DNA of 64,000 nt from NCBI RefSeq assembly GCF_000597725.1, contig NZ_JFBL01000002.1, positions 1 to 64,000 of the forward strand, in the 5' to 3' direction. Below, one piece after another: positions 45,044 to 51,160 of the stretch. Positions within the stretch are counted from its first letter, which is position 1; every line of letters begins with the position of its first letter. Source of the stretch: Sulfurospirillum arcachonense DSM 9755. Its GTDB lineage: Bacteria; Campylobacterota; Campylobacteria; Campylobacterales; Sulfurospirillaceae. The position numbers and the translations under genes were made by a program. The notes below the pieces were generated by a model, which did not search any database, was not told the origin of the DNA, and saw only the letters and a list, made by a program, of their open reading frames with translations.

Positions 45044-45538
45044 GTGAAAAAAATAATTTTATATATATTTCCATTAGTAGCGATTTTTGTTTTATTTGGA
45101 GTATATACATCCCTCAATCAAAACCCTACAGAGGTAGTCAATACTAAAAAAGAACCGCTTAGCTTTAAAGACAATAAAATAGTATGTCCGCAGTGCAACA
45201 TGTTTTTAGTAGGCAAAAAGTACACAGCACAAGCTATAACGAGTGACCGTAAAACTCACTTTTTTGATGATGTTGGTTGTATGATTTTGTGGCTAGAAGA
45301 AAATGCAAAAGATGATAAAGAAGTAGTAGAGTGGGTCTACTCACTAGATACAAAAAAGTGGGTAAACGCAGTTGATGCTTTTTACTCTATAAATGATAAA
45401 AATAGCCCTATGCACTACGGTTTTGGCGCATATGAAAATTCTAAAAAAGAGTATATTCCCTATGAGCAAATGAAATTGCGTATGCTAAGAGGTGAAAATC
45501 TACTGAATCCTAAAATAAGAAAGAAGATATTGGGGTAA
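45044..45538 (+). CDS. NosL-like membrane-anchored protein
   Basis: 164 aa with an N-terminal membrane anchor (about residues 3-22) and a periplasmic domain. The metal-site region is VCPQCNMFLVGKKYTAQ, where NosL normally has C-P-x-C-G-M; here Asn replaces the Gly. HFFDDVGCMILWL and DAFYSI are the other family blocks. NosL binds Cu(I) for nitrous oxide reductase assembly. There is no nosZ in the window. GTG start after AAAAGAG. Confidence 0.82.
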   Translation: MKKIILYIFPLVAIFVLFGVYTSLNQNPTEVVNTKKEPLSFKDNKIVCPQCNMFLVGKKYTAQAITSDRKTHFFDDVGCMILWLEENAKDDKEVVEWVYSLDTKKWVNAVDAFYSINDKNSPMHYGFGAYENSKKEYIPYEQMKLRMLRGENLLNPKIRKKILG

Positions 45539-45560
45539 AGCACTCAATGAAGAGTGCTTT
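45537..45560. terminator. two-way terminator between the NosL-like genes
   Basis: AAAGCACTC pairs perfectly with GAGTGCTTT around a 6-base loop; T-rich on the plus side and A-rich on the other, between two convergent genes. Confidence 0.75.
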
Positions 45561-45568
45561 ATGTAGTT

Positions 45569-46270
45569 TTATTTAGCTCTTCCAGCAAGATAGAGTCCTA
45601 CTTGTTGGAAAGGTTTTCCTTTTAATTTACCACAAAGTTTATGCTCTTTTAGATAAGCTTTTGCAAGAGCTGGATTTGTAAATCTTTGATCTGTTGCTTT
45701 GCACATCTTTTCGTAAACTTTTTTACCCATTTTTGCAGCTTTTGCTTGTCTTTTTTTAATCATCGCGATTTCTTTTTTCAAGCTCAAACTAACTTGTTTT
45801 ACTACTGCATCATATTTCATGATTTTACCACCAAACTTTTTAGCAAAATCCGTTGCAGTTTTTTGTGAGCCAAAAGCGTATTTACTTACCATTGACATAG
45901 TAGCTGGTTTACTAGAACCTACTACATAAAAAGCATCTTTAGCAGGAATAAATTTTAAAGTGTCATTATCAATAACTCTAGGGTTTACTACTTTGATTCC
46001 TTTTGTCATTGCTTCTTCAAGCATACAATGAATTGAGCAGTATTGGTGAGTTTCACCATCTACATCTGCCGCGTGATTTGTTTTGTAAAACATAGGCAAT
46101 GTCATACCGCAAACTGGACAAAACTTCTTTGCTTTACCTTTTTGTAAAATCTGTACTTGCTCCATAGGCACGGCTCTAAAATTCTTCATAGGTTTTTTAG
46201 CCATATCAGCACTAAAGCCACTTACGCTAAGACCTATCACCACAAATAAACTCAAAATTATTTTTTTCAT
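45569..46270 (-). CDS. NosL-family periplasmic protein with extra C-terminal helical module
   Basis: 233 aa. A signal peptide (to about SGFSA) is followed by a NosL domain with FCPVCGMTLPMFYKTNHAA and QYCSIHCMLEEA, then a helical C-terminal extension with MGKKVYEKMC and a later Cys, shared with the neighbouring 46348 gene product. Copper binding is inferred. A hairpin CTCC-AAA-GGAG covers its ribosome-binding site (46271-46291). Confidence 0.8.
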   Translation of the reverse strand: MKKIILSLFVVIGLSVSGFSADMAKKPMKNFRAVPMEQVQILQKGKAKKFCPVCGMTLPMFYKTNHAADVDGETHQYCSIHCMLEEAMTKGIKVVNPRVIDNDTLKFIPAKDAFYVVGSSKPATMSMVSKYAFGSQKTATDFAKKFGGKIMKYDAVVKQVSLSLKKEIAMIKKRQAKAAKMGKKVYEKMCKATDQRFTNPALAKAYLKEHKLCGKLKGKPFQQVGLYLAGRAK

Positions 46271-46291
46271 AAAATCTCCTTTGGAGTATTT
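46271..46291 (-). promoter_or_regulatory. hairpin covering the ribosome-binding site of the NosL-family gene
   Basis: On the minus strand AAAAT-A-CTCC-AAA-GGAG-A-TTTT folds so that GGAG is in the stem, directly before ATG. It could limit translation. Confidence 0.4.
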
Positions 46292-46347
46292 TATTAAAGA
46301 AGTGTTAAATTAACGTAAAATTAACAATATTGAGATACACTTTATCT

Positions 46348-47232
46348 ATGAAAAATTTAATTATTATCTTGTTTTTAATCAGCTCGCTTTTTGCAAATCC
46401 TTGGTGTCCTATAACAGGGCTTAAAATATCGGAGCATTTAGAGACTTCCTACCAAGCAAAACTAGAAGCCAATGATGTGCTAAGAGTTTATAGCTCAGTG
46501 TACGCACTTTTAGAAGATATGGAAAATTACGGGGTATATGATATAAAAGCGTATGATGTAAAATCAAAAACATATATACATGTAAAAGAAGAAGATTTAG
46601 AAGAGGCAAAAAAGTCTTTACATGTAAAGCAAAAACAGATGCGTGAGGTTTATAAAAAAAGAGCCTATCCTATGGGAAAAAAGCTTTATGAAAAGAGATG
46701 CCCAAAAGATATAGATATAGAAGAGTTTTTAGAAATAAGTGACTTAAAAGAAGTACTACAACAAAGATGTGATTTAAAAGATGAAACCTATCTGCATGCG
46801 ACTGCTGTTTATCTGTGGGATGTCAAAAGAGAAGGTGGCGTGGTAGCCCAAGAGAGCAAAATCCATGTGCATGAAGATGAAAAATGTCCTATATGTGGTA
46901 TGTATGTGTATAAGTACCCAAGATGGGCAGCGCAGATTTATTATGTAGATAAACACTACTCATTTGATGGAGTAAAAGACTTGATGAAGTACTATTTTGA
47001 ACATCAAAAAGGTATTACAAAAATCCTTGTGAGTGACTACTACTCACAACATGCTATAGATGGGTATAAAGCATATTATGTGATTGGAAGCGATAAGTAT
47101 GGACCTATGGGACATGAACTGATTCCTTTTATCAACTTAGAAGATGCAAAAAACTTTATGCGTGATCATAAGGGTAAAAAGCTACTCAAGTTTGATAAAG
47201 TCACACAAGAAGATGTTACTAAACTAGATTAG
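46348..47232 (+). CDS. two-domain NosL-family protein
   Basis: About 294 aa. Signal peptide (MKNLIIILFLISSLFA) followed directly by NPWCPITGLKI, a first NosL-like half that has lost one Cys, then the MGKKLYEKRC helical module, then a full NosL domain (KCPICGMYVYKYPRWAAQI, YSFDGVKDLMKYYF, YVIGSDKYGPMGHELIPF). The start is ATG 46348. It converges with and overlaps by 4 bases the membrane-protein gene at 47229. Two palindrome copies 42 bp apart flank the variable linker (46576, 46618). Confidence 0.85.
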   Translation: MKNLIIILFLISSLFANPWCPITGLKISEHLETSYQAKLEANDVLRVYSSVYALLEDMENYGVYDIKAYDVKSKTYIHVKEEDLEEAKKSLHVKQKQMREVYKKRAYPMGKKLYEKRCPKDIDIEEFLEISDLKEVLQQRCDLKDETYLHATAVYLWDVKREGGVVAQESKIHVHEDEKCPICGMYVYKYPRWAAQIYYVDKHYSFDGVKDLMKYYFEHQKGITKILVSDYYSQHAIDGYKAYYVIGSDKYGPMGHELIPFINLEDAKNFMRDHKGKKLLKFDKVTQEDVTKLD

Positions 47233-48206
47233 AGCCAGACCCCATTTTTGATATAAAAGACTACAGGATACGCTGTTATAATAGCTGTGTATAAAGTGTT
47301 AAAGAATAAAGATACTTTATAATAACTTTTAGAATGATGAGGTTTCAAAAGAGAGAGTATCGAGCCACTTATACCGCTAAAGGTGCCAATAAAAAGAGTC
47401 ACATACAAAAGATAACCTACATAATGATACTCTTTTTGTAAGAAACAAAATGGACAGTGATGTGTTGGTAACTCATATATATAAGTACAAAAAAACAGTA
47501 TTAAAGAGATAATAGAAACTATAAAAAAGACTAAATTACTAAAGAAAAAGAACAGTTCAGACTTAAGAAAAAATGAGACTAGATAGAGAAAAAAAGTTGC
47601 GTAAAAAATAGTAATAATGATGTTATTTGGTATCATAAAAATAACTGAAAAAGATGAAGCTGAAGCTACAGAAAAAAGAGTTCCACAACAACTCACTATT
47701 TTATCTACATCCAAAGAAGCAAAAAAAGATATTTCGTAAGCTATCTCGATGATTAAAAGTAAAAAAGCCACTAAAAAGATAGAAAATTTTAGTTTTGTAA
47801 GTGAAAGTTTTTCATCTTGCATATCCTTTACATGTAAAGCTATCCAAAAGCCAAAAACAAAAAGATTTATAATCTTAAAAACAAAAAGCCATAGTCCAAA
47901 CTCTACTGAGTTTACTACTCCAGCTGCACACATTGCCCCTGTAATTACACCTGAAATTTTATCAGCAGTAAATACAAAAAACATAAAAAGAGGAAGTTTT
48001 AAAACAAATATATATTTTATAATTGTAGCTGCTAAGATAGCTTTTTTTTCAAGTGAGTATTGAAGAGAACTTGTACTATTTAAATCCCACTTTTTGACAA
48101 TATTTATACTAATTACAAATGCAAAAAAAGCAAAAACTATAAATATACAATCAAGTATAAGTATAGCTATGGTTTCAGGAGTGAGAAACATCGATGACTT
48201 CTCCAT
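47229..48206 (-). CDS. multi-span membrane protein with CPFC motif, unknown function
   Basis: 325 aa with about eight membrane spans. Periplasm-side or interface motifs are GAMCAAGVVNS, IVSCCGTLFS and THHCPFCFLQKEYHYVGY. The CPFC resembles a thioredoxin-like or VKOR-like redox pair or a metal site. It overlaps the ABC ATPase gene by 32 bases, so it belongs to that operon. I know no named family; a role in copper or disulfide handling with the neighbouring NosL proteins is a guess. One exact palindrome copy at 47828 (ALHVKD). Confidence 0.7.
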   Translation of the reverse strand: MEKSSMFLTPETIAILILDCIFIVFAFFAFVISINIVKKWDLNSTSSLQYSLEKKAILAATIIKYIFVLKLPLFMFFVFTADKISGVITGAMCAAGVVNSVEFGLWLFVFKIINLFVFGFWIALHVKDMQDEKLSLTKLKFSIFLVAFLLLIIEIAYEISFFASLDVDKIVSCCGTLFSVASASSFSVIFMIPNNIIITIFYATFFLYLVSFFLKSELFFFFSNLVFFIVSIISLILFFCTYIYELPTHHCPFCFLQKEYHYVGYLLYVTLFIGTFSGISGSILSLLKPHHSKSYYKVSLFFNTLYTAIITAYPVVFYIKNGVWL

Positions 48207-48858
48207 TTTTAAGCTCTACTATCTTATCTACAAAATCCAAATCAAAAAAGAGTGGATCATGGGTTGCTATGAGTATGGTAGTTGCATCATTTTTAAGTGA
48301 CTTGATAATCTCTATAAAGTCAAGTGAAAGTTTTGCATCTAGATTTGCTGTTGGCTCATCTGCTATGATTATTTTAGGATTGTTTATTAGAGCTCTACTT
48401 ATAGCTACTCTTTGTTGTTCTCCTCCTGAGAGGTTTTTAACGAGTACATCTTTTTTGTCTTCTATACAAAATGTTTTTAAAAGCTCATCTATCCTTTTAT
48501 GAAGTTGCTTTTCATTTGGATTTGTAGGGATCAAAGGTAAGATGATATTATCATATGCGCTCAGAGTTGGGATGAGGTTGTACTTTTGAAAGATAAAACC
48601 AACATTTTCTCTTCTAAAAAGTGAAGTAAAGTTGTCTGGCATTTTCGAGATTCTTTTTTCATCTATTATGACTTCACCAACATTAGGTTTACTAAGAGCT
48701 GCTATGAGTGAAAGAAGGGTACTTTTTCCACTTCCACTAGCCCCTTTGAGTATAACAAGCTCACCTTCTTTAAACTTCAAATCTATCTCTTTGAGTGCAG
48801 TTAATTCATTTGGTTTGTTTACATTAAAAATCTTGCTTATATTTTTACATCGTATCAT
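48175..48858 (-). CDS. ABC transporter ATP-binding protein (MacB/LolD type)
   Basis: 227 aa with Walker A GASGSGKSTLLSL, Q-loop FIFQKYNLIPTLSAYDN, signature LSGGEQQRVAISRAL, Walker B IIIADEPTANLD and the His switch ATHDP. The ANLD form is typical for MacB/LolD/FtsE-type partners of FtsX-fold permeases. Its ATG overlaps the stop of the permease gene by 4 bases. Confidence 0.93.
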   Translation of the reverse strand: MIRCKNISKIFNVNKPNELTALKEIDLKFKEGELVILKGASGSGKSTLLSLIAALSKPNVGEVIIDEKRISKMPDNFTSLFRRENVGFIFQKYNLIPTLSAYDNIILPLIPTNPNEKQLHKRIDELLKTFCIEDKKDVLVKNLSGGEQQRVAISRALINNPKIIIADEPTANLDAKLSLDFIEIIKSLKNDATTILIATHDPLFFDLDFVDKIVELKNGEVIDVSHS

Positions 48859-50036
48859 CTCATTACCTCATCAGCATCCATACTTGCAACTCTCCAAGAA
48901 GGAATAATAATAGCAGCTAAATACAGAGGAATAGTTAGAAAAAAGAGTAAAAATATAGTTTGAACATCGAGTATAAAAGGTAAATCAAAACTAGGTTTGA
49001 GTCTCGAATAGCCTATAAATATCTCTTTTAAGATAGGAGCTTCTAAAGTATATACAAAAAACAAAGAGAGTATAATCGCACTTATAAAAGCAACAAAAGA
49101 GATGATAAATGCTTCATAAAACTTCTCTTGAAGTATGTCATCTATCTTCCAACCGAGTGCTTTTAGTATGCCTATCTCTTTTTTCTCTTCACTACTAAGT
49201 CCACTTGCTTTATCGTAAATTATCATAAAAAATGTAAAAGCAGAGATAACAAAAAGAGCTAAAAACATACCGCTTTTATAATCAAATATATTTTGATAAC
49301 TCACCTTTAAATCACTCTTAGTTATAACTCTTGTATCAGGGTATAAGTTTTTTATTTTTTTTGCGATTGTTGGAATCTCTTCAGGATTAGCAACACTGAG
49401 TACTATATCAGTAGCCTTAGTTTTATCCATACCAAAAATCTCCAATACAAGAGAGCGAGGCATGAGTATGATGTCATTTGATTCAAGTGAAGTTTTACTT
49501 GAAAATGTAGAAGCTATAGGAACTTTTATAAAATCACCATCTGGTTTTATAAAATTGAAGTAGTTTTTATAGTAGTTTTCACTCAAAGCCTTTTTCACAC
49601 CTTGTCCAACAACCATAGAAGAGGTTTTTTCTAGTGCATCAAAATTTACATTTTTAACTATATTGGCAAAACTATTTTTATATTGTTTATCATATGCGTC
49701 AATGCCAACAAGTGAAAAGTTCACTCCAGCTTTTTCAAAGTAGTAGTAACCCCAAATCCTCGGTACAGCACTTTGTACTCCTTGAAATTCTAAGAGTTTG
49801 TTTACTCTTTTTAATTCTATATTTGTTTGACGTCCTGCTTGGAGTTTTTGCACTATAATTTGAGGAAGTGAATCAAGTGTCAGGTTTAACTCTTCTTTGA
49901 TTGAATTTGAGATAAAAAGTATACTTGAGAGTAAAAAGATAAGGGCTGTAAATATAAATAATACAAATAGACTTTTTGTTCCTCGTCTAAAAAGTGAGCT
50001 TACAGCAAAACCTATTAAATAGTGATTTATCTTCAT
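48855..50036 (-). CDS. FtsX/MacB-type ABC permease
   Basis: 393 aa. An N-terminal span (about 18-40) and three C-terminal spans (about 260-285, 320-345, 355-380) surround a large periplasmic domain (MacB-PCD-like). LLFFLTIPLYLAAIIIPSWRVASMDADEVMR shows the usual end of the family. Such systems act as mechanotransmission machines or lipid/lipoprotein extractors rather than classic channels. It is preceded by copy 3 of the structured leader. Confidence 0.9.
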   Translation of the reverse strand: MKINHYLIGFAVSSLFRRGTKSLFVLFIFTALIFLLSSILFISNSIKEELNLTLDSLPQIIVQKLQAGRQTNIELKRVNKLLEFQGVQSAVPRIWGYYYFEKAGVNFSLVGIDAYDKQYKNSFANIVKNVNFDALEKTSSMVVGQGVKKALSENYYKNYFNFIKPDGDFIKVPIASTFSSKTSLESNDIILMPRSLVLEIFGMDKTKATDIVLSVANPEEIPTIAKKIKNLYPDTRVITKSDLKVSYQNIFDYKSGMFLALFVISAFTFFMIIYDKASGLSSEEKKEIGILKALGWKIDDILQEKFYEAFIISFVAFISAIILSLFFVYTLEAPILKEIFIGYSRLKPSFDLPFILDVQTIFLLFFLTIPLYLAAIIIPSWRVASMDADEVMR

Positions 50037-50040
50037 CTAA

Positions 50041-50090
50041 TATCTCCTTTTCAAAGAGCAAAGCCCCTTGAAAATTCCTATCACTAAAGC
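50041..50090 (-). promoter_or_regulatory. structured leader element in front of the ABC permease (copy 3)
   Basis: On the minus strand GCTTTAGTGATAGGAATTTT is identical to the metX leader, followed by a stem of TTCAAGGGGC and GCTCTTTGAA around TTT (50050-50072), ending in AAAAGGAGA. The stem bases differ from copies 1 and 2 but all ten pairs are kept (three G-U). Confidence 0.65.
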
Positions 50091-50109
50091 ATGAAATGAA
50101 ATTTCTGTT

Positions 50110-50418
50110 TTATTCAAGTTCTATCCTTGAAGGAATATTTTTATAGTTTTGTGAGTAATTGTACGTAAATGTTGAAGGAAAATACTCTAAAAGTTCAGGG
50201 CCATTGCTAAAAAGTGAAAAAGTGTCGCTTAGACTTCTGTGCCTTATAAAATTTGCTCCATTGGATATAGCTAAATCAGGAAGGCCTACAGTTTTTACAA
50301 AGTCATTTTTTGTTTGTTCATGAAGATTTGAACTACTATACATGTAAAGGATTTCCATGCTTAAAATACAGGACAGTAAAAATATAAGGGATAACACATA
50401 ATGGCTAAATCTGTTCAT
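50110..50418 (-). CDS. hypothetical membrane-anchored protein upstream of the ABC genes
   Basis: 102 aa with one N-terminal hydrophobic segment (about 7-27) and a polar periplasmic tail (ISNGANFIRHRS ... FSLFSNGPELLEYF). It is the first gene of the ABC/NosL-side operon. The ATG lies 5 bases after a TATAAT box on the minus strand and lacks a ribosome-binding site. No family recognised; a NosL-cluster accessory is an inference from position only. Confidence 0.6.
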   Translation of the reverse strand: MNRFSHYVLSLIFLLSCILSMEILYMYSSSNLHEQTKNDFVKTVGLPDLAISNGANFIRHRSLSDTFSLFSNGPELLEYFPSTFTYNYSQNYKNIPSRIELE

Positions 50419-50429: not shown

Positions 50430-50451
50430 CTTATTAATTGTTAAATAAGTG

Positions 50452-50457
50452 TATAAT
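50452..50457 (+). promoter_or_regulatory. -10 box for fetB
   Basis: TATAAT in GTGTATAAT, 22 bases before the ATG at 50480. Confidence 0.5.
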
Positions 50458-50479
50458 TGGAACTAAAAAAAGGAAAACA

Positions 50480-51160
50480 ATGCAAATTATTTCCATAACA
50501 AATCTTTCCTACATGTTAGTACCTTTGCTTTTTGTATCATTTTTTTACTATAAATGGGTCGAAGATAAAAAGGAGATTGCTTATGCAACTTTTCGTATGC
50601 TATCTCAACTTCTACTCATAGGATATGTATTAACATATATTTTTAACTCAAACAATTCATTTTTTACTCTGTTTATTGTTATTGTGATGATAAGTGCTGC
50701 GAGTTTTATAACCCTAAGAAACGTCACTTGTAAAAATAAAAAAGTCTATAAACATATATTTTTATCTATTTTTTTAGGAGGAACAATAAATCTTTTTTTT
50801 GTAGTATTTTTTGTGCTTGATTTAGACTCTTTTAACTCACCTCGTTATGTTATTCCTCTTGCTGGGATGCTTTATGCAAACTGTATGAATGCAGTCTCTT
50901 TAGTAGCTGAAAGATTTGAAAAAGAGCTAGAAACGCAGACTTATAAAAAATCACGTGCTATTGCTTTTAAAGCTGGACTCATACCTCAAATAAACTCTTT
51001 TTTAGCAGTAGGTTTAGTCTCACTTCCTGGGATGATGACAGGGCAGATACTCTCAGGTGTAGACCCAATCATAGCAGTACGCTATCAAATCATGGTAATG
51101 CTCATGATTCTTGGAAGCTCAGGTATTGCTACAGTGACATATCTTTTACAAAAAAGATAA
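50480..51160 (+). CDS. FetB/YbbM (UPF0014) family ABC permease
   Basis: 226 aa with about seven membrane spans. Family landmarks: RMLSQLLLIGYVLTYIF near the N-terminus, LAGMLYANCMNAVSL, and SLPGMMTGQILSGVDPIIAVRYQIMVM. In E. coli FetAB exports iron. The ATPase partner fetA is not adjacent. The start is ATG 50480, which follows AAAAGGAAAA; an upstream in-frame start at 50438 would overlap the promoter. Confidence 0.88.
   Translation: MQIISITNLSYMLVPLLFVSFFYYKWVEDKKEIAYATFRMLSQLLLIGYVLTYIFNSNNSFFTLFIVIVMISAASFITLRNVTCKNKKVYKHIFLSIFLGGTINLFFVVFFVLDLDSFNSPRYVIPLAGMLYANCMNAVSLVAERFEKELETQTYKKSRAIAFKAGLIPQINSFLAVGLVSLPGMMTGQILSGVDPIIAVRYQIMVMLMILGSSGIATVTYLLQKR

Follow-up and report, generated by a model that had tools for sequence, protein, structure and literature searches.

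A NosL-associated ABC module with a cysteine-rich membrane protein in Sulfurospirillum arcachonense and other Campylobacterales, with a probable role in periplasmic copper handling

The first 64,000 nucleotides of contig NZ_JFBL01000002.1 of Sulfurospirillum arcachonense DSM 9755 (assembly GCF_000597725.1, forward strand), here called the window, contain at positions 45044-50418 one copy of a bacterial gene module that is widespread but undescribed. Its minus-strand operon encodes, in this order, a small anchored protein, a permease, an ATPase of the ATP-binding cassette (ABC) type and a membrane protein named here after its CPFC motif, and lies beside three NosL-type genes, as listed below. 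The module probably belongs with the periplasmic cuproenzyme maturation systems, and it includes one new membrane protein family. In the Campylobacterales it probably handles periplasmic copper for the maturation of copper enzymes, as NosL and the gene context suggest.

45044..45538, plus strand: NosL2, 164 amino acids (aa), membrane-anchored remote NosL-family protein, CPQCNM motif (PF05573, 21.1 bits)
45569..46270, minus strand: NosL-family protein, 233 aa, CPVCGM motif, plain signal-like N-terminus (PF05573, E 1.7e-13)
46330..47232, plus strand: NosL-family protein, 300 aa, C-terminal NosL domain with CPICGM (PF05573, E 9.8e-36)
47229..48206, minus strand: CPFC protein, 325 aa, 8 predicted transmembrane (TM) helices, GAMC93, CC173-174 and HxCPFC251-254
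48175..48858, minus strand: ABC ATPase of FtsE/LolD/MacB type, 227 aa (PF00005, E 1e-34)
48855..50036, minus strand: permease of FtsX/LolC/MacB type (type VII), 393 aa, 4 predicted TM helices and a periplasmic domain (PF02687, E 5e-12)
50110..50418, minus strand: small single-span anchored protein, 102 aa

An earlier note on this DNA had described three NosL proteins beside a four-gene operon with CPFC and CC pairs, and all of these genes were found in their places; the third invariant motif GAMC93, a second module copy in an mcc operon and a nos cluster beside the copy of the nearest relative go beyond it. The module genes of the window are all intact, with full-length frames and every invariant Cys kept. 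In non-mcc modules the small protein, for which no match was obtained among Pfam and NCBIfam models, has a conserved periplasmic motif (VGLPDLAxSxEAxYIRHRSLSDxFSxFxxxPELLEYFPSTFxY).

A survey of 249 Campylobacterales genomes found the CPFC gene in 118, nosZ in 100 and NosL in 145 of them; the sequence around almost every CPFC locus was taken, and its genes were called with profiles built for this analysis. The permease, ATPase and CPFC genes were contiguous in 118/135 loci with a median overlap of 4 nucleotides, and a NosL-type gene lay within 6.5 kb in 120/135 loci, the exceptions being mostly contig ends or loci without NosL. This arrangement is far beyond chance. The mcc gene cluster, which reportedly consists of MccABCD-CcsBA, is said to encode a copper-haem sulfite reductase, and the modules outside it were compared with nosZ by genome: both were present in 69, the non-mcc module only in 42, nosZ only in 31 and neither in 107, an odds ratio of 5.7 for genomes that are not phylogenetically independent, which makes its p-value no more than indicative. 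The earlier note had asked about co-occurrence with nosZ or with cytochrome oxidases, and an association was thus obtained for nosZ. A CuA oxidase as target was rejected, since a COX2 gene like the genome's own copy was found in 14/249 genomes with no obvious tie to the module. The COX2 subunit at L005:406-2079 (G000:C17) ends at its C-terminus in a tandem of three cytochrome c domains that are nearly identical, and its same-genus homologue aligns to residues 1-420 only.

Nos genes were present within 10.5 kb in 22/113 non-mcc loci, and in 8/55 among those with full flanks. The order is nosZ-B-D-G-C-C-H-F-NosL2-Y-NosL followed by the module (e.g. L046, L047, L071), or alternatively the module lies between NosL2 and NosY (L048, L075, L089). 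Replacement of NosFY by the module was rejected, as NosF and NosY genes adjoin it in most nos clusters. In the mcc context the paralogous module is found inside the cluster at 22 loci (22 genomes), always together with NosL, NosL2 and SEL1 genes. CcsBA adjoins these mcc copies. The window copy lies outside any mcc cluster. The mcc form was present in 21/21 genomes with an MccA of at least 60% identity versus 1/228 others, and the sole extra genome (G020) has lost mccA. In G020 (L066:13137-15501) IS21-like transposition genes stand directly before mccC, and NrfD, CcsBA, SEL1, NosL and the module are kept. In a quick IQ-TREE tree of 91 CPFC proteins the mcc-linked proteins fall on one side of one branch (98*) as one clade. 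On the same tree the nos label needs 15 changes, at least 11 of them forced by starred branches, and the pairing of module and nos therefore arose or was lost repeatedly.

The assembly of the window genome (family Sulfurospirillaceae) is 99.99% complete. The absence of nosZ and nosD, stated earlier for the locus, holds for the whole assembly and extends to nosY: the sole match of the NosZ model was 21.7 bits in a COX2 gene, and the NosD and NosY of the same-genus sister genome, used as queries, found neither gene. The genome has a CPFC paralogue at G000:C7:51704, with 35% identity to that of the window, in the order SEL1-SEL1-NosL (361 aa, two domains)-permease-ATPase-CPFC-NosL2. The cluster also has, upstream of these genes, MccA (704 aa), the FKBP-like MccB, the Fe-S protein MccC, the NrfD-type MccD and CcsBA; the window copy has no MccA in its cluster. 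Because this second copy sits in a complete mcc operon of the same genome, the module is not dedicated to nos alone. The MccA used as reference (L065) is of the PDB 4rkm/4rkn family, and MccA has been listed among copper enzymes (PMC7558416). The proposal of the earlier note, a copper machine for another periplasmic cuproenzyme or a stand-alone copper-handling system, thus gains from the paralogous module fixed in mcc operons beside MccA and from the 42 nosZ-free genomes with a non-mcc module, but its stand-alone variant found no support. Downstream of the mcc module (L036:1726-4980, G000:C7) there are another permease/ATPase pair of MacB-like type, a COX1-like protein standing alone (PF00115, 27.7 bits and thus under the cut-off), which is an unusual isolated haem-copper-oxidase-like subunit, and then a YceI-domain gene.

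Other neighbours recur among the modules. ExbB-ExbD-TonB genes immediately precede NosL in about 10 loci, and in one lineage (L109, L114, L115, L119, L121, L122, L129) they share one gene run with NosL and the module; no outer-membrane receptor gene partnering TonB was identified. This neighbourhood fits copper uptake, since pseudomonads bring in copper for NosZ through the TonB-dependent NosA/OprC (PMC7558416). In 19 loci NosL2 is followed by a DsbD_2 (CcdA-like) gene. Orphan loci include the window copy and Sulfurospirillum loci with a common LysE neighbour; LysE, a GroEL paralogue, an M48 peptidase, PrmC, an ArsC-like protein and an epimerase are recurrent as neighbours but look like ordinary flanks.

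The PF05573 cut-off is passed by the proteins of 45569-46270 and 46330-47232, and that of 45044-45538 alone stays below it with 21.1 versus the 24 bits needed. The NosL2 family is nevertheless matched to NosL in profile-to-profile comparison (hhalign 96.9%, E 1.9e-10), and 15/28 of its members match PF05573. The four NosL-like domains counted earlier are a fair count by eye, as three have C-P-x-C-[GN]-M (CNM, CGM, CGM) and a degenerate NosL-like domain (CPITGL) without C-x-M makes up the N-terminal half of the 300-aa one. No lipobox Cys after a signal or anchor was seen by eye in the three proteins. The NosL of P. denitrificans binds Cu(I), serves CuZ and has a conserved CxM (PMC6530538).

In the CPFC protein the Cys of GAMC93, CC173-174 and HxCPFC251-254 are invariant in 132/132 family members. 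Conservation within the family suggests Met6 (about 48191) as the true start. The AlphaFold model has 8 TM helices and a predicted local distance difference test score (pLDDT) of 86. Because the loops without Cys are richer in Lys/Arg for their length than the longer Cys-bearing loops, a charge bias, all the Cys motifs are placed in predicted periplasmic loops. No relative by sequence was found in Pfam, NCBIfam, PHROG or PDB, the search of the model against PDB folds gave 91 weak matches with none at E <= 0.001 (the best being noise of the G-protein-coupled-receptor-like kind), and an internal repeat was looked for and not found. The motif HxCPFCxLQ[KR] resembles the C-x-x-C-x-x-Q-R of DsbB, and kinship with DsbB/VKOR was rejected, as the motif is in register but the profile match is not significant and no fold match reached the same E value. 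The CPFC protein is thus a membrane protein family of unknown relationship.

The classification of the permease as MacB/LolC-type, proposed earlier, is borne out by its FtsX domain and by the fold of its AlphaFold model (pLDDT 82), which matched LolE (E 2e-14), MacB (E 7e-13) and LolC in Foldseek. With its 4-TM fold and periplasmic domain it is a type VII (MacB/LolCE/FtsX) permease. It is not of the ABC-2 NosY type and no NosD accompanies it, so the module is not a NosDFY system. In type VII ABC systems the use of ATP in the cytoplasm moves periplasmic parts.

From these data a route of copper can be proposed. The NosL-type proteins would hold Cu(I) via their C-x-M motifs, as in the studied NosL, and the invariant periplasmic Cys, Met and His of the CPFC protein would take up Cu(I) and hand it on, or else hold the transfer thiols in the reduced state. 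The exchange of Cu(I) among the NosL-type proteins, the cysteines of the CPFC protein and the apo-enzyme would be powered by the ABC unit, the LolC/MacB-type permease and its ATPase converting cytoplasmic ATP hydrolysis into periplasmic movements that drive release or hand-over, and the small protein may be an adaptor. The module would work on top of NosDFY in nos clusters, and its target in mcc operons would be the Cu site of MccA; the window would have a nos-type copy without nosZ, in a genome whose MccA already has its own module copy. The more specific proposal of a dedicated ATP-driven copper-loading module, in which the 8-TM CPFC protein and a LolC/MacB-type ABC unit serve at least two unrelated enzymes (N2O reductase and copper-haem sulfite reductase) and a third in nosZ-free genomes, is put forward tentatively, as a possibility that we rather doubt than favour.

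Several observations weigh against a role in copper handling. About 15 loci have no NosL nearby, and NosL2 is without the C-x-M motif in the aligned Sulfurospirillum and Campylobacter mcc copies. The 31 genomes with nosZ and no non-mcc module show that it is not needed for NosZ everywhere, and the lack of phylogenetic independence applies to all genome counts. Seven genomes carry a distant MccA-like octahaem protein (47-50% identity) with both candidate Cu-ligand Cys, and have neither NosL nor the module. These two Cys are assigned as Cu ligands after the MccA structure and because no other non-haem Cys is conserved throughout. A loss of the Cu ligands in the module-free proteins would have strongly supported the copper role, but it was not found: both Cys are present, and in 6/7 the first site has an additional CPxC. 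Finally, the NosZ of these bacteria and MccA are both c-type cytochromes, and the same linkage would follow from a redox or haem function. As an observation apart, the genes of the MccA-like octahaem subfamily adjoin one for a six-haem protein of about 690 aa, with CcsBA in 2/3 (L268:7238-11405, L269:6322-13842, L270:7145-14561).

A thiol-redox role would make the CPFC protein a DsbB/CcdA-like membrane thiol oxidoreductase which, with the ABC unit, readies the cysteines of c-type cytochromes for haem attachment or folding, the NosL-type proteins being substrates or partners. The c-haem domain of Campylobacterota NosZ, the eight haems of MccA, the DsbB-like motif, the DsbD_2 genes after NosL2 and the CcsBA beside the mcc copies are all in line with it, and the DsbB model was matched by 1/41 CPFC members (E 0.003). 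In hhalign the comparison with DsbB reached a probability of only 3-5%, with a weak match in register at the motif for the C-terminal half (P 0.007), and there is no DsbB/VKOR fold match. The mcc operons moreover carry their own CcsBA already, NosL-type proteins accompany the module in most loci, and the seven octahaem MccA-like genes do without it, with CcsBA beside 2/3 of those looked at; a thiol-redox function is therefore regarded as unlikely. A transporter of Lol or MacB kind, for lipoprotein extraction or for small-molecule or copper export with the NosL genes as mere neighbours, is in our view quite improbable. In sequence and fold the permease and its ATPase resemble LolCE/LolD/MacB, but they score far under the equivalog cut-offs (LolCE 52/362 bits, LolD 191/308 bits, and those of FtsE and MacB also missed), no MacA- or TolC-like partner was recognised in the module, and the pair is nearly always joined to the CPFC gene, usually to NosL, and linked to cuproenzyme operons.

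The nearest CPFC relative of the window copy is in a genome of the same genus (G223, 79% identity) with the same flanks (ATP synthase, ParAB, BirA, Fmt, ProB and ObgE genes, and an SDR gene beside the module; L069, L285), and there a full nos cluster with nosZ lies 16 kb away on the other side of the module. For this relative the reading as a rearranged nos locus, which the earlier note had reserved for the case that most relatives have nosZ immediately associated, is apt, but most relatives have no such association. Because the G223 copy in the same chromosomal place lies 16 kb from nosZ, the window locus is most simply seen as a module of the nos type which has survived the loss of nosZ or been parted from it. 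The nos cluster may instead have been gained in G223, since label counts on trees give no direction. A remnant of a former nos cluster, in decay and now functionless in this genome, would account for the shared flanks, for the loss of NosD and NosY and for genome G078, which keeps module-NosY-NosL without nosZ. The intact frames and Cys of the module speak against decay, as do the nosZ-free genomes with a non-mcc module, which belong to several families and include the same-genus G091, where it is kept with a divergent NosL pair as in the window; we give this explanation little credence. Between module and SDR gene the window has a UPF0014/FetB-like permease gene (50438-51160, plus strand; iron-efflux permease family) with no ATPase partner adjoining, which is missing from the same place in G223.

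The copper-handling module proposed here resembles NosDFYL and the nos clusters of Campylobacterota in its NosL family, its ABC ATPase-permease pair and its position inside nos clusters, and differs in its type of permease versus the ABC-2 NosY, in having no NosD, in occurring in addition to NosDFY and in being found also without nosZ and in mcc operons. With LolCDE, MacB and FtsEX it shares the permease fold and ATPase type, but it forms its own sub-family, whose partner is the new 8-TM Cys protein and not LolA, MacA or an amidase activator. The only direct precedent found for the module is a 'five-gene insertion' between nosL and nosY in the nos cluster of S. cavolei, given as hypothetical-permease-ATPase-hypothetical-hypothetical (PMC4794192, Fig. 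5); as drawn in that figure, its genes and order equal those of the module (loci L089/L250, S. cavolei UCH003). It was published in 2016 as unexplained open reading frames of one species, and the parts of that paper available to us draw no link to MccA, copper or distribution (PMC4794192). In the literature within our reach, which did not extend to papers behind a subscription (above all Kern 2011, which deals with the mcc genes), no paper was found that names the module or links it to MccA.

In the literature searched no account of a copper route to MccA was found, and NosZ assembly is discussed mostly via NosDFYL. A conserved additional module, present in roughly half of the Campylobacterales genomes sampled and known in mcc-linked and nos-linked forms, provides genes that can be deleted, with N2O or sulfite reduction at low copper as readout. 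If true, the proposed role would make the module a second ABC-driven route of periplasmic metal insertion, relevant to N2O-consuming bacteria.

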